From Monoplex corrugatus (taxonomy: Eukaryota > Mollusca > Gastropoda > Littorinimorpha > Ranellidae), in the NCBI GenBank assembly GCA_030674185.1, contig CM060307.1, positions 50,838,883 through 50,902,882 on the forward strand: a stretch of 64,000 bases of DNA, written 5' to 3'. A program made the position numbers and the translations under genes. This document shows positions 7,401 through 13,400 of the stretch, piece by piece (within the stretch, counting starts at the first letter, position 1; each line of letters begins with the position of its first letter). A model generated the notes under the pieces. It worked only from the letters and a program-made list of their open reading frames with translations. It did not search any database and was not told the DNA's origin.

Positions 7401-10400
7401 TACACGCACACGTGCGCACATGCATGCGCACACAAACGCGCAAAAAAACAATCTCACACACACACTCTCTCTCTCTCTCTCTCTCTCTCTTAATCACACT
7501 CACTCAGCTCTCTCTCTCTCGCTCGCTCACTCACACTCTCTCCCTCTCTCTGATCATTAAAAAAACTGACCTGTTGCATTTGTAAGTAATGTTCCTGACA
7601 GTTTCGAGACGTCCCCCTATTCGGGCAACATGAATGATTATTATGTGGATCGTGTGATTACGGTGACTGGGAGTTTGGAGAACACATTCAAAGCAGAGGA
7701 GCTGATCAGTGAAAAAATGCGACTGTGCCTTGAGCAAGATGCTAATACATACCAGGTAAGCAGCATGTGTTATGTCTTTTCTGTTTGGGGATTTCTCTCT
7801 GTCCTTTTTCAAACATTTCCATTCTTGAGATTATGGGAGAAGAACTGTCAGCCCGTCTGAGTGTCCCTTTCTGAACAAGATATGTTCACAGATAACTTTG
7901 TGTGATTTAAAGATTTGCTCTTGTAGACCTGTCAGCTTGTTAAGTTTGGGTCCTCGATGGTCTCCTTGTTGCTCTTTGACAGTGACAGCATTTTGAGTGT
8001 AATGTCTCCTTGACCTGTCTGCTGCTGTTGATACAATAAAGCATGACATTGTTCTCGGCTCTAGTCGTATGGAATCTGTAACAGTTGTGCTTTCATGAGT
8101 TAAATCCTATCACAGTAGGTGCTCTCAAAAACGTTTCAGTGAGCGGCCTTGAATCTCTTGAAACTTCTCTGAACTCTGACATCCCACAAGGTTCACTTCT
8201 TGGCACTTTACTGTGTGTTGTGTATGCTAAACTGGTGTCTAGTGTCATTGCCTGTCATCCTCTGTCACATGAAAGCTTTGCAGATGATACCCCACACTGT
8301 ACCAGTGTGACAGATGTTGATCAGATGATTTCCATCATGTAGAATTGCAAAGCTTAACTTAGAGTTTGGGTGACAGAGAATACAAATTCAGCTAAACTAT
8401 TACCCCCATGGGGATACCGGGGGCTTTCTCAGCATAAATAGTTTCCCCACCTTCTGGAAATTGTGTGCTAGAAATTTCTTCTTTTCTGTCACTGTCTTTG
8501 TTTCTTTCTTCTTTCTTTGCTTTCTGTCATTTCTTCCTATCATTTTCTGCATTGCTGGCCCATTCACCTGTATGTGTTCAATAAAGTCTTATGTACTTTC
8601 TCTTAGGATTGACAATTGGGTATATGTGTTAAGTGCATTTTTGGCTCTGGGGATATGAGATACGTAGAAGCAATTTTAGGTAATTTAGGCCCGTTTTTAT
8701 GTATGTCTTAGTGTCCTTACATATGTTTAAATTTGTATTCAGGTATGTTTTTTAAATCCCCATGTGTGATAAATTGGACGGAATGGTCAATGCCGGGGGC
8801 ATCTCTTTAGATTATGTGCGTGAATGCATTGAAAAATGTATTTAATTTTCATTTCCTTTTTTCCTGTTGAAGTATTGTATATGTTTTGAACTTGTTATAG
8901 CCCTGATATGGCTCTATGCAGTTGGCTGGGCTTTAACCCTTTCCCATTTGCAGATTCTGCTCAGAAACTCTTCCTAGTATTCGGAGATTTTCCTATGTTT
9001 TTAAAGAAAATGTAGTTCTGCAATTTGACAGAGCACCACACGATTACTATTTATCATAGAGCATCCACATTTGGCAAACTTATTCATGAGATGTCATAGT
9101 TTGTTATGTACCCCAGTATGTGTGTCCTGCCTACTTGTGTCATGCTGCTGTCCCCTGTATTGTCACCAAATCAAGGTAAAATCATGATGACATCATGCTG
9201 TTAGTCCACAACTAGCCTATAACATACACAGTGGACATATGTGAGTCACAAACAGCACATATGGTCCTACCTGAACGTGTCTGCCATCGTATCCGCTGTC
9301 ATAATACTCCAATCGAATATGTACACTTGTCACAAAATGAATGTCACCAACCACTCAATCATTATGTATCTGGCGGTAGTTATAGCACACAATGTACAGT
9401 ATTTACAAATATATTCACATATTTACACATCCACACTATGTACAAGAATGTCGGGTGTCTATTCAACATCAGCCACCAAGGTGGCTGTCACAGTAAACTG
9501 TCACAGCTGAGTGTCACAGCAGCTGTCACCTGTCACCAAACATGTCATCAAATTAGGATGTTATTTCCCTGACTGGGCTGGCCCACCAGATTTTGTTGGT
9601 GGTAATCCCTGAAGCAGTCCCTTTTGTGATGGCACAGGGAAACTTGACAGAAACTGCACATATAGGATGTTTCCACCTGTCCACCTTTAGCTGTGCGTCG
9701 CCCATTGATGACACATTGACGACAGACTCTCTTGCAGCCATCTCTCTTCACTAGCTTGTGCTGGTCGATTGTCTGGAAGGCAATGGGGGGCTGTGAAGAT
9801 GGCTTCCTTTTTGCTGCAACCTTTTTTCTGCAAGTGAAGCCTCCTCTAAGCTGGTCGACAAGGTCAGAGCGAAAGGCAAAGTGGTCGTACCTCTTCTTGA
9901 CAGGTGTGACATGTGCTGATTTCTCCCAGGTGAGAAACGCATTGATGATGCAAAGATTGATCATTGAGTTGAAGATATATCTCCACCACTTCTTGTTTGC
10001 ATGGCCCACAGGATAGTAGGACAAGTGTTGATCACATTTGTCCACACCTCCCATGAGCTTGTTGTATGCAGCAATGACAGTGGCCGTCTCTTTTTTCTTT
10101 GACATCGTTTTACCTGGGGGCTGGTTGGTGCTCAGCATAAATATTTGGCGCTTGTCTTTGTAGACTGTGGCCATCAGTGATCCCTGCTCCATCTGCAGCA
10201 GATCCCCTTGGTTGGCAAGTCTTGCTTTCTTCACCTCCATTGGCAGTCCTTTTCTGTTGGGCATAACTGTCGCGCAGGCATATGTCCCCTTGGCACGCAG
10301 ATTTTTCAGGAGGGGCACAGAGGTGAAGAAGCGGTCAAAGTACAAGTGCCTGTTCTGGTTGAAGTAGTCAGAGGCCAGTTTGTTGACGACTTCTTCCCCC

Positions 10401-13400
10401 AGGCTGACACTGGTGTCCTGGCGACTCTGACGACCGGTGTAGACGTCAAAATCCACACAGTAGCCCGTTTCTGCCTCACATATTTGCCACACCTTGATGC
10501 CCCATTTTGTTGGCTTTCCTGGCATAAACTGCTTGAAAAATATGCGTCCCTTGAAGCCTATCATGGATTCATCTACACTCAAGTCACGGCCTGGATTGTA
10601 CTGTGACTTGAACAAGGGCTTCAACATGTTGAGAAAGGGCCTAATTTTGAAGAGGGGATCATAGTCAGGGCTGTCACGCCCAGGTGTGTTGCTGGTATCT
10701 CGCAGGTGAAAATATTGATTCAGCTTCAAGAACCTTGTTTTTGGCATGACAGCACTGACCCATGATTCAGAAAATTTGTCGTCTGTAGACCAGTAGAGGT
10801 GCACCCTTGGCACAGGTTTCATCCCCATCATGATCAGCATCGACAGGTAAGCTTTCATTTCTGCTGGTGTTGTGTCTGACCATAAGGGGTCTGTGGCTAA
10901 GCCCTTAGCAGCGATCTTTTGCCTGGCGTAATTATTTGTTTCATCAGCTGCTGTTTGAAAAAACAGCTCAGGCACAAATAAAAAAAAATAATCCAGTGGT
11001 TTGGCATCGAGAGGGAGAGTGTGAGTGGGGCCAGTTGGCAGTACGAATTCATTCACTGCGACCGGCGCGCCTGCACTTCGCCACGTCGTCTGCAACGATG
11101 CCAGTGGAATGTCGTCGTCAGGGTCACTTTCCTCTTCACTATCTTCTCCAATTTCATCTCCATCTTCAGCTACTTCAATTTCGACATCAGATTCGTTGCC
11201 TAAATCTCTTTCACACTCCTCCAGTTGTCGCAAAATAGCTTTCGTTTCCTCATCAGTGTAATCTTCGAACATTTCTTCTTCGTAAATGGCAGCCATTTTC
11301 AACACAAAGAAAGCGTGTGAATGAAAAGGTCGGACTCTGACCGATATCTTGTAAATGAGGCGATGTGTGGTACCAGACTCAGCATCATTCTTTCATTGGT
11401 TTATCCTGACTTTCGCGGGAAACTTCATTCATGAGGTGTGTGTAACCCCTAGTGCTTAGAGCGTGATGGAAATTCCCCACCAGGCCTAAGTAACGGGAGG
11501 CGGGCTGCGGCGGGTGTAAATAAAAAGCGGGGTTTCCCGGCTGGCGGGCTGCGGCGGGATAAAATGGGAAAGGGTTAAACAACAACAGTAACAGTAACAG
11601 CTAAACTATAATACAGAAGCAGTGCTCATCATTCCACCAAAGCGTCAAAAGTGTCCTTTCCTTCCATGCCTCTCAGTGGCACTGACGTTCGTTCTCACTC
11701 CATGTATGTAACCTTAAAGTCTTTAAATTGTATATTTCCAACATTTGCAATGTGGCCTATCTAGAACTCAGGAATTACCTTTCTGCTGATGGCACTAAAA
11801 TACTTGTTCATCTGTTCTGTCTTGACTATTGCAATGCAATCTTGGTTAAGCTTTCAACCTATCTTCTCCGCAGGTGATAAAAAGGGGGAAGTGGTCAACG
11901 ACAGGGGTGTGTATGTGTGAATGCACTGATATGTGTACTTCATTTTCTTTTCTAGGATTTTTTTTCAGAGTCATTGACTGAGGTGTTACGTATGTTCTGA
12001 AATGATTATATATATCTGATACGGCTCTTCTAAGCCAGCTGGTCTTTAACCCTACCAGACCGAGTTCCCGCTTTTGCGGGAATGACGAAAATGACTATAT
12101 ACCGAGTTCCCGCTATAGCGGGAATAGCACACTCACACGATCGTCACTTTATCAAGAGCTAAAAATAGCTACCGGACTGTTGCTAAGCGTCGCGTGAGCG
12201 TGTGTTCAGCCTATTGCAACTGTCTGCCTTTGTGTTGATGGTATTTTGAGGTGATCTGGGTGCAAAATTGACCATGAAGCGAGCTAGTGATGAACCAAGC
12301 ACTTCAACAGGTAAACGGGCGAGGCCAACTCGCTTCACAGTTCAACAAGTGGTGGACATTTTGCAGATTGGAGAATTTGATCAGGAATACGTTTCCGATT
12401 CAAGTGACGATGATTACGTTGATGAAGCATTGAGTGAAAGTGATGATTCTGACAATGAAAGAAGTAGGTCGAGACAGAGTGTTGGAAGAAGGGGGCGTGC
12501 CCGTACCCCCCAACCAAGTGATAGGGGAGATGCTTGTGTGATTGAGGGTTGGACTGGCGTTAGATGAAAGATAGGCCTATTTTCTACAATCTCTCCACGT
12601 TTCATATAATTCTAACCATTGGTGTGCATGATATGAACAGTTTTCTAACGTATATACATTTTTTTCAAAATTTTGCTCAGGAGGCCAGGCAGGGGGCACA
12701 ATTACGCTCAGGGGCTAAGGTCTGGTAGGGTTAAACAGTAAAGATAATGTTTTCTTCGTAGCAGTATGAGTTGATATTAGCATTTGCTTTTCATGTGTGT
12801 CATTTTTTTTTGAAGTGCTTAAGGCTCTGTGAGATGAATTACTGTACAGTTAGTCATTACTATTAAGATAAGATCATGCATGTTACAGCAACAACAGATG
12901 ATGTTCAGTGGTCTGCCTACACTTCCCATGATGCCTGGGGGGATGAACAGCTATCCTGGTACTCGTCCTCCCTACCCTTACATGGTAAGGTTTTGACTTG
13001 TCCATGTGCATGTTGTTGTTTTTTTTGTTCATGCTGTCATTGCTGGGACAGTTCTGTCAGTTTTATGGGTGCATCTTTTTCCGTTTGACGACAGAATCTG
13101 TTTTTTCAAAAGAATCAGAAATGGAAAATCCGTTTTTTGAAAAAGTTTCAGCGTAGCCCCCCAGCCTCCCCCCCCCCCCCCCCATACGGGGTGCTGCCGG
13201 CCACTGGGCCCCCTTTCAGTTTTTTGTTTTTTGACTTTTTGTAAGTTGCACCCTTGCAGTTTATAACCCAGTCTTCACTTGATAGTGCTTATTTCTTGTC
13301 TCAGTTTATGTTCAGAATATTCTAACTTGACATTTGAATTTTCAGCTTCTGGTAAAGTGTCGATTTGATTAGGTAATTAAGAGTGATTGTGCATTGTAAA

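Follow-up and report, generated by a model that had tools for sequence, protein, structure and literature searches.

A complete piggyBac transposon of a recently amplified and probably still mobile family in the gastropod Monoplex corrugatus

We analysed a 64,000-nucleotide stretch of the genome of the gastropod Monoplex corrugatus (contig CM060307.1 of assembly GCA_030674185.1, positions 50,838,883 to 50,902,882 of the forward strand; hereafter, the window), which holds a complete piggyBac transposon at window positions 8933-11578. The element is 2646 bp long including both TTAA copies. Inside the TTAA pair it carries perfect 13-bp terminal inverted repeats (TIRs; CCCTTTCCCATTT) and an intact open reading frame (ORF) for a transposase (Table 1). 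The 17-bp sequence formed by TTAA and TIR occurs twice in the window, both times as one of the element's own ends. An initial annotation of the window had described the element as structurally complete and possibly active, and the TTAA copies, the perfect TIRs, the unbroken ORF of 582 amino acids (aa) and the near-identical copies elsewhere in the genome bear this description out. It is very probably an autonomous copy of the piggyBac superfamily, belonging to a family that amplified very recently and probably retains the ability to transpose. Membership in the superfamily is indicated by a transposase with a DDD triad that belongs to the DDE_Tnp_1_7 family, by short TIRs (13 bp, CCCTTTCCCATTT) with the C-rich start CCC/CCY, and by a target TTAA that is duplicated on insertion, as seen from the TTAA at both ends of all 38 full-length copies and from the empty sites.

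The predicted protein matched two Pfam families, DDE_Tnp_1_7 (E 2.3e-81) and zf-Tnp_2 (E 2e-5; 25.5 bits, compared to a cut-off of 24). D242, D321, D419, D422 and six C-terminal cysteines were invariant across the window protein and 16 relatives, and the C-terminal Cys-rich domain is predicted to be of the zinc-binding type. The intact transposase and its full Cys-rich C-terminus had been recognised in the initial annotation, where its length was given as 585 codons; it is 582 codons plus a stop, on the minus strand. Similarly, the aspartate triad that was reported there is present, with the residue numbers (245/324/422) each 3 too high. Two solved structures in all were found by sequence search at E 0.001 or better, namely piggyBat (9c0f, E 3.1e-54) and the Trichoplusia ni (T. 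ni) piggyBac transposase (6x67, E 1.1e-38). For an AlphaFold model of the transposase (mean predicted local distance difference test, 79.8; predicted template modelling score, 0.70), the three best Foldseek matches were two piggyBat chains and piggyBac, with query-length template modelling scores of 0.60-0.63 and root mean square deviations of 7.4-10.7.

Table 1. Features of the piggyBac element and of its target in the window.
Feature	Window position	Strand	Remark
Target, 3' end of an older, probable LINE copy, tail ...GGCTGGGCTTTAA	8433-8936	plus	resumes past the element at 11579-11597
Left TTAA target-site duplication	8933-8936		single TTAA in the empty LINE-like copy
Terminal 58 bases on the left, counted from the TTAA	8933-8990	plus	part kept by the 330-bp derivatives
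Left 13-bp TIR CCCTTTCCCATTT, transposase 3' side	8937-8949	plus	perfect in 38/38 full-length copies
Transposase ORF, single exon, 582 aa, ATG context AAAATGG	9548-11296	minus	582 aa in 15/38 full-length copies
Cys-rich C-terminal domain zf-Tnp_2, residues 511-566	9599-9766	minus	Pfam; the six Cys are shared by all 17 aligned proteins
DDE_Tnp_1_7 domain, residues 100-454	9935-10999	minus	Pfam, alignment, AlphaFold model
D419	10040-10042	minus	within DDE_Tnp_1_7
D321	10334-10336	minus	within DDE_Tnp_1_7
D242	10571-10573	minus	within DDE_Tnp_1_7
5' untranslated end, CpG-rich	11297-11561	minus	mostly retained in the 330-bp derivatives; CpG observed/expected 0.95 (11297-11578)
Two 28-nt GC-rich direct repeats, 5' end only	11494-11521 and 11538-11565		44 bp apart
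Right 13-bp TIR, transposase 5' side	11562-11574	minus	perfect in 38/38 full-length copies
Right TTAA target-site duplication	11575-11578		empty LINE-like copy
Empty paralogous site with one TTAA in an unbroken copy of this repeat end	19254-19534	plus	73% identity, alignment crosses the site

The element lies in the tail of an older repeat, which is probably a long interspersed nuclear element (LINE), as judged by eye from the tail and from a reverse-transcriptase-like reading nearby. This tail reads GGCTGGGCTTTAA before the element and ACAACAACAG after it. Because the uninterrupted copy of the same repeat end in the window has a single TTAA, the TTAA pair that flanks the element is a true target-site duplication and not a chance occurrence. 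Another member of the family, L012 (L numbers denote places in the genome), was found inserted in the same LINE-like tail. When the flanks of L033 were joined and compared to an empty copy of the repeat, they aligned at 492 of 504 columns, and the joined flanks of L024 were identical to an empty copy on contig C35 in 554 of 607 aligned columns; the flank of L024 belongs to a dispersed repeat, and this empty copy may be either an allele or a paralog. Only the window copy, L012, L024 and L033 were counted as having empty sites, which represent the state before insertion and not excision. The joined flanks of many other copies also aligned to repeats over the insertion point; these copies include L026, L035, L039-L043 and L014, and the match of L014 has no TTAA at the junction point. 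The family also showed a preference beyond TTAA itself: 23 of 38 insertions lie in YTTAAR, a motif whose share is 26% among the 345 TTAAs of the window (p 6.5e-6) and 23% among 111 TTAAs of the flanks (p 1.1e-6).

We searched the assembly (3,018,142,536 bases, 3.0 Gb, in 7621 contigs) for further copies. The best 40 of 706 first-look candidates were scored, and the 39 places besides the window were taken with their flanks. Full-length copies were present at 38 of the 40 places, the window copy included, while L046 and L047 lacked the left end. All 38 had TTAA and a perfect 13-bp TIR at both ends. The 582-aa ORF was kept in 15 of them, encoding 11 distinct proteins, one of which was shared identically by five copies; the left-truncated L046 also retained it. 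When gaps were included in the comparison, 31 of the 37 remaining full-length copies were at least 98% identical to the window copy (28 of them 99-100%), which is the multiplicity of >98% identical copies that the initial annotation had proposed as a check of recent activity. The other six copies (95-97%) scored lower mainly through gap columns, and five of them have 50-106 bp added. In these five (L038, L041, L042, L043 and L045), an extra 50-53 or 106 bp is located at the point of window position 9142, in the 3' untranslated part, and looks like one or two added repeat units. Flanks of 300 bp showed no match between copies over 100 bp at >90%, the exception being L015's own two flanks, and because the flanks differ, the copies are independent insertions. 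As expected of a recently active family, several near-identical copies thus stand at unrelated sites, and several combine a full ORF with both ends.

The copies have diverged little. Relative to a family majority built from the same 38 copies, and with insertions and deletions not counted, the median was 0.25% substitutions and the maximum 2.0% (53 substitutions). Twenty copies had 0-7 substitutions from the majority over approximately 2,646 bases; their mean pairwise difference was 4.63 (maximum, 11), and 12 of the 20 have the 582-aa ORF. Some, such as L014, L015, L016 and L017, had no private substitutions at all. The window copy itself differs from the majority by 17 substitutions (0.64%), six of them private, and its nearest copy is L009 (0.34%); it is slightly older than the 20-copy burst and is not the youngest of its family. 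These results show a recent amplification of an autonomous piggyBac element.

Variants in the coding region were divided according to whether they were shared by two or more copies or private to one. The shared variants comprised 14 amino-acid-changing, 29 silent and no stop changes, and the private ones 72, 40 and 7, respectively (Fisher p 1.5e-4, with stops taken as changing). The neutral expectation was 2.96 changing to 1 silent, calculated with transitions weighted 2 and without extra weight for CpG. Since the shared variants are mostly silent, the lineages that multiplied kept their transposase working. An unselected ORF of this length would have a 5% chance of being unbroken at 1.1-2.2% divergence under assumed rates of insertion and deletion.

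Several observations weigh against the reading of an autonomous and still mobile family. As the 40 scored places were the best of 706, the sample is tilted to young, complete copies, and 23 of the 38 full-length copies no longer yield the 582-aa ORF. The private variants (79 changing or stop and 40 silent) also fall somewhat below the neutral expectation; for this reason that expectation must be regarded as rough, and the contrast between shared and private variants still stands. The window protein deviates at 7 strongly conserved columns, for example with E370 in place of Q and A405 in place of P, which is not unusual, because the 16 other aligned proteins deviate at 1 to 24 such columns. Finally, no clear allelic pair with presence and absence of the element was found, and the empty copy matched by the flanks of L024 may be paralogous.

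An alternative, which we consider unlikely, is that the family has recently died, with a burst dating back no more than a fraction of a percent of divergence that was followed by silencing or by a defect common to the copies. E370 and A405 speak for this reading, as these departures from conserved columns are absent from the differences between the window protein and the commonest intact protein and are therefore family-wide; the ORF is, moreover, already broken, shortened or altered in the 23 copies mentioned above. The copies with no private substitutions argue against recent death, since they leave almost no time after the last jump, as do the five intact copies that encode one identical protein. 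We thus favour an autonomous family, for which recent activity is very likely and present transposition likely, judging from these sequences.

The element also appears to have given rise to non-autonomous derivatives. Exact occurrences of its terminal 25-mers in the assembly numbered 225 for the 5' end and 271 for the 3' end, as compared to none for reversed controls. Among the first 30 of the 225 places of the 5' 25-mer, taken in contig order, 21 were derivatives of 288-332 bp that keep approximately 270 bp of the 5' end and approximately 58 bp of the 3' end; the 17-base 3' end was perfect in 15 of these and altered in six. Seven of the 30 resembled the long element over the stretch read (L049, L050, L057, L058, which is the truncated L046, L069, L070, which is the window copy, and L077), and L052 and L053 were neither derivative nor long element. 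At L053 (G000:C1:138257376-138261937), 4562 bp separate the exact 25-base ends, with a match to the element in only the first 73 of the 1525 bases read, and this place may hold either an insertion nested within a copy or an element whose contents differ. Pairing of exact ends on contigs C1-C4 (37 and 42 ends) gave 25 pairs, with lengths of 2626-2647 bp in six, 288-332 bp in 18 and 4562 bp in one, and added two full-length pairs outside the 40 scored places (C1:40637264, 2644 bp; C1:62667230, 2626 bp). No derivative of 288-332 bp was found in the window.

Pairwise divergence among the 21 derivatives had a median of 6.6% (range, 1.5-10.5%), and on account of this median most of them predate the burst of long copies. 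It is possible, if rather doubtful, that an earlier family spread the 330-bp derivatives, largely died, and was re-seeded, perhaps by horizontal transfer, by a new autonomous lineage whose transposition is ongoing. If true, this would be a natural, currently mobile mollusc piggyBac accompanied by derivatives that it has mobilised, and would make it possible to watch a transposon return. The derivatives further suggest which end sequences may be enough for movement, namely approximately 270 bp on the 5' side and 58 bp on the 3' side. The two GC-rich direct repeats of the 5' end are possible candidates for transposase-binding sites. In the derivatives, the 10-base blocks with the lowest conservation (agreement, 0.67-0.77) fall in this repeat zone; part of the loss there is through loss of CpG, which accounts for 105 of the 417 differences in total. 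A 22-nt motif around TCATGA, present at a distance of 137 bp from the left tip and again, with 17 of 22 bases alike, at 136 bp from the right tip, was also considered; none of 200 shuffles reached 17/22, for a motif that was picked only after being noticed. As a required signal of the 3' end it was rejected, because the 330-bp derivatives retain only approximately 58 bp of the left end and lack the left copy.

A cluster of short TTAA elements with ends CCCTTTGACTCC occupies 36.7-49.3 kb of the window (36703-49260), has ends such as CCCTTTGACTCCCTCACCCTATCCACCAGCTT, and belongs to a different family; a tandem array with a 70-bp period lies within it (43188-43439). In the initial annotation, the piggyBac element was put forward as a possible source that mobilises these short elements, a proposal that we regard as very improbable and no longer hold. 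The two share TTAA and the first six terminal bases, CCCTTT. Past these bases their ends diverge (GACTCCC compared to CCCATTT), so that the CCCTTTGACTCC ends match at 7 of the 13 terminal bases, that is, at the first 6 and at base 9, and no internal sequence is shared. Moreover, the window element has a separate, well-matched derivative family, that of 330 bp.

Two further explanations of the long copies have next to no probability. The first is that the transposase is a domesticated gene kept by the host, which an intact ORF under purifying selection would fit; instead of a single-copy, immobile locus with lost ends, we found dozens of dispersed, independent insertions, each with perfect TIRs and TTAA, whose private changes include stops and frameshifts. 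The other, that the copies arose by segmental duplication or assembly error, for which the many short contigs (among 7621) might speak, is refuted because homology ends at the termini of the element: the 300-bp flanks differ, the boundaries fall exactly at TTAA in 38 of 38 copies, and empty sites were found in four cases.

A further, distant piggyBac in the window at 55-1016 (minus strand; 28-36% identity in a tblastn search with the transposase) is broken over several frames, and in comparison with it the complete element is much younger, as the initial annotation had held; by eye, the N-terminal part of this decayed copy extends to 1644. Two ORFs on the minus strand (18542-18943 and 21849-22274) also appear by eye to be N-terminal pieces of piggyBac relics, with no Pfam match. 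A TTAA element of 689 bp (12046-12734) has 12-bp ends, CCCTACCAGACC, and a short ORF that looks by eye like a piggyBac N-terminus and had no Pfam match. It sits in the tail TTAA of another LINE-like copy (62% over 187 columns; window 12037-12734), and the LINE-like tail near 39573 directly precedes CCCTTTGACTCC-like sequence. Because the 689-bp and CCCTTTGACTCC-like elements adjoin such tails too, the LINE-like tail seems to be a repeated landing site. A reverse-transcriptase fragment at 51541-52395 (minus strand; RVT_1, E 9e-26) has few named relatives among the matches listed, and these include Plakobranchus, Elysia and Ridgeia. Searches of the window with Rfam at gathering scores and for tRNAs gave no match and no tRNA.

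As judged from its homologues piggyBat and T. ni piggyBac, the transposase of the autonomous, recently amplified family would bind both ends of the element and cut them through hairpin intermediates with D242, D321 and D419. The element would then be joined to TTAA, here preferentially YTTAAR, and its excision would be free of footprints. Internally deleted derivatives, which retain approximately 270 bp at the 5' end and 58 bp at the 3' end, would have been moved in trans, for the most part during an earlier wave. Animal piggyBac families that show signs of very recent movement are useful in that enzyme and ends form a natural set, and this family includes at least 15 structurally complete copies with the full transposase ORF. 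It also represents a clear burst of a DNA transposon in a large gastropod genome, and its copies serve as a record of its relative age.

The search for relatives of the transposase passed 280 proteins, the best 120 of which were listed, and a tree was built from 117 proteins with four partial ones excluded. The nearest among the matches listed was a piggyBac-like transposase of the dog whelk Nucella lapillus, ACOMHN_025081 (78% identity over 99%), a snail of the family Muricidae. In the tree it was sister to the window protein with a support of 100, and its 90% cluster had 19 member sequences. Identity was higher in the core (83%) and the Cys-rich domain (86%) than in the N-terminus (66%) and the linker (62%). 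Changes polarised by a third protein, P0002, numbered 40 on the window lineage and 26 on the Nucella lineage. ACOMHN_025081 is represented here by its protein alone, not by ends or copy structure, and the identity of 78% would fit either descent or horizontal transfer. No relatives of the transposase were found in the viral contigs searched. The Nucella genome paper gives 4689 piggyBac elements (PMC12506669). The mitochondrial ND2 of the host was nearest to that of Monoplex parthenopeus (86%), of the superfamily Tonnoidea, and next to those of Cymatium, Bursa, Tutufa and Charonia, likewise tonnoidean genera, which makes a tonnoidean host probable.

T. ni piggyBac (IFP2) targets TTAA. Its D268, D346 and D447 align with D242, D321 and D419 of the window protein, the Cys-rich domain is common to both, and identity in the fold alignment is 25%. 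These three residues have been described as essential, and D450 as needing a negative charge, in PMC2533014. Its ends contain 19-bp internal palindromes according to PMC11707139, and these have no proven counterpart in the window element. The best match among solved structures, by sequence and by fold, was piggyBat of Myotis lucifugus (25-26% identity in the fold alignment). The same paper places GCGGGA at bp 11-16, 55-60 and 99-104 of the piggyBat left end, which is the 44-bp spacing of the GC-rich repeats in the window element; the sequence and orientation of the repeats differ, and piggyBat also has truncated repeat copies at its right end, whereas the window element has repeats at the 5' end only (PMC11707139).

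Within the part of the literature covered by our search, no paper on this piggyBac family was found by title and abstract. A complete piggyBac from a mollusc is not new, because a survey of intact piggyBac types from small animal genomes reports 19 intact copies from Mollusca (PMC10813416). The finding leaves knowledge of how piggyBac elements work unchanged; the type of element is already well known, and the family itself is a new member. Similar to the window element, the types described in that survey have TTAA, CCCTT as the most conserved start of the TIR and a single ORF of 500 or more aa (PMC10813416). Of those types, from small genomes, 188 of 212 had fewer than six intact copies, as compared to 15 of 38 copies by a similar definition in the 3.0-Gb host studied here.

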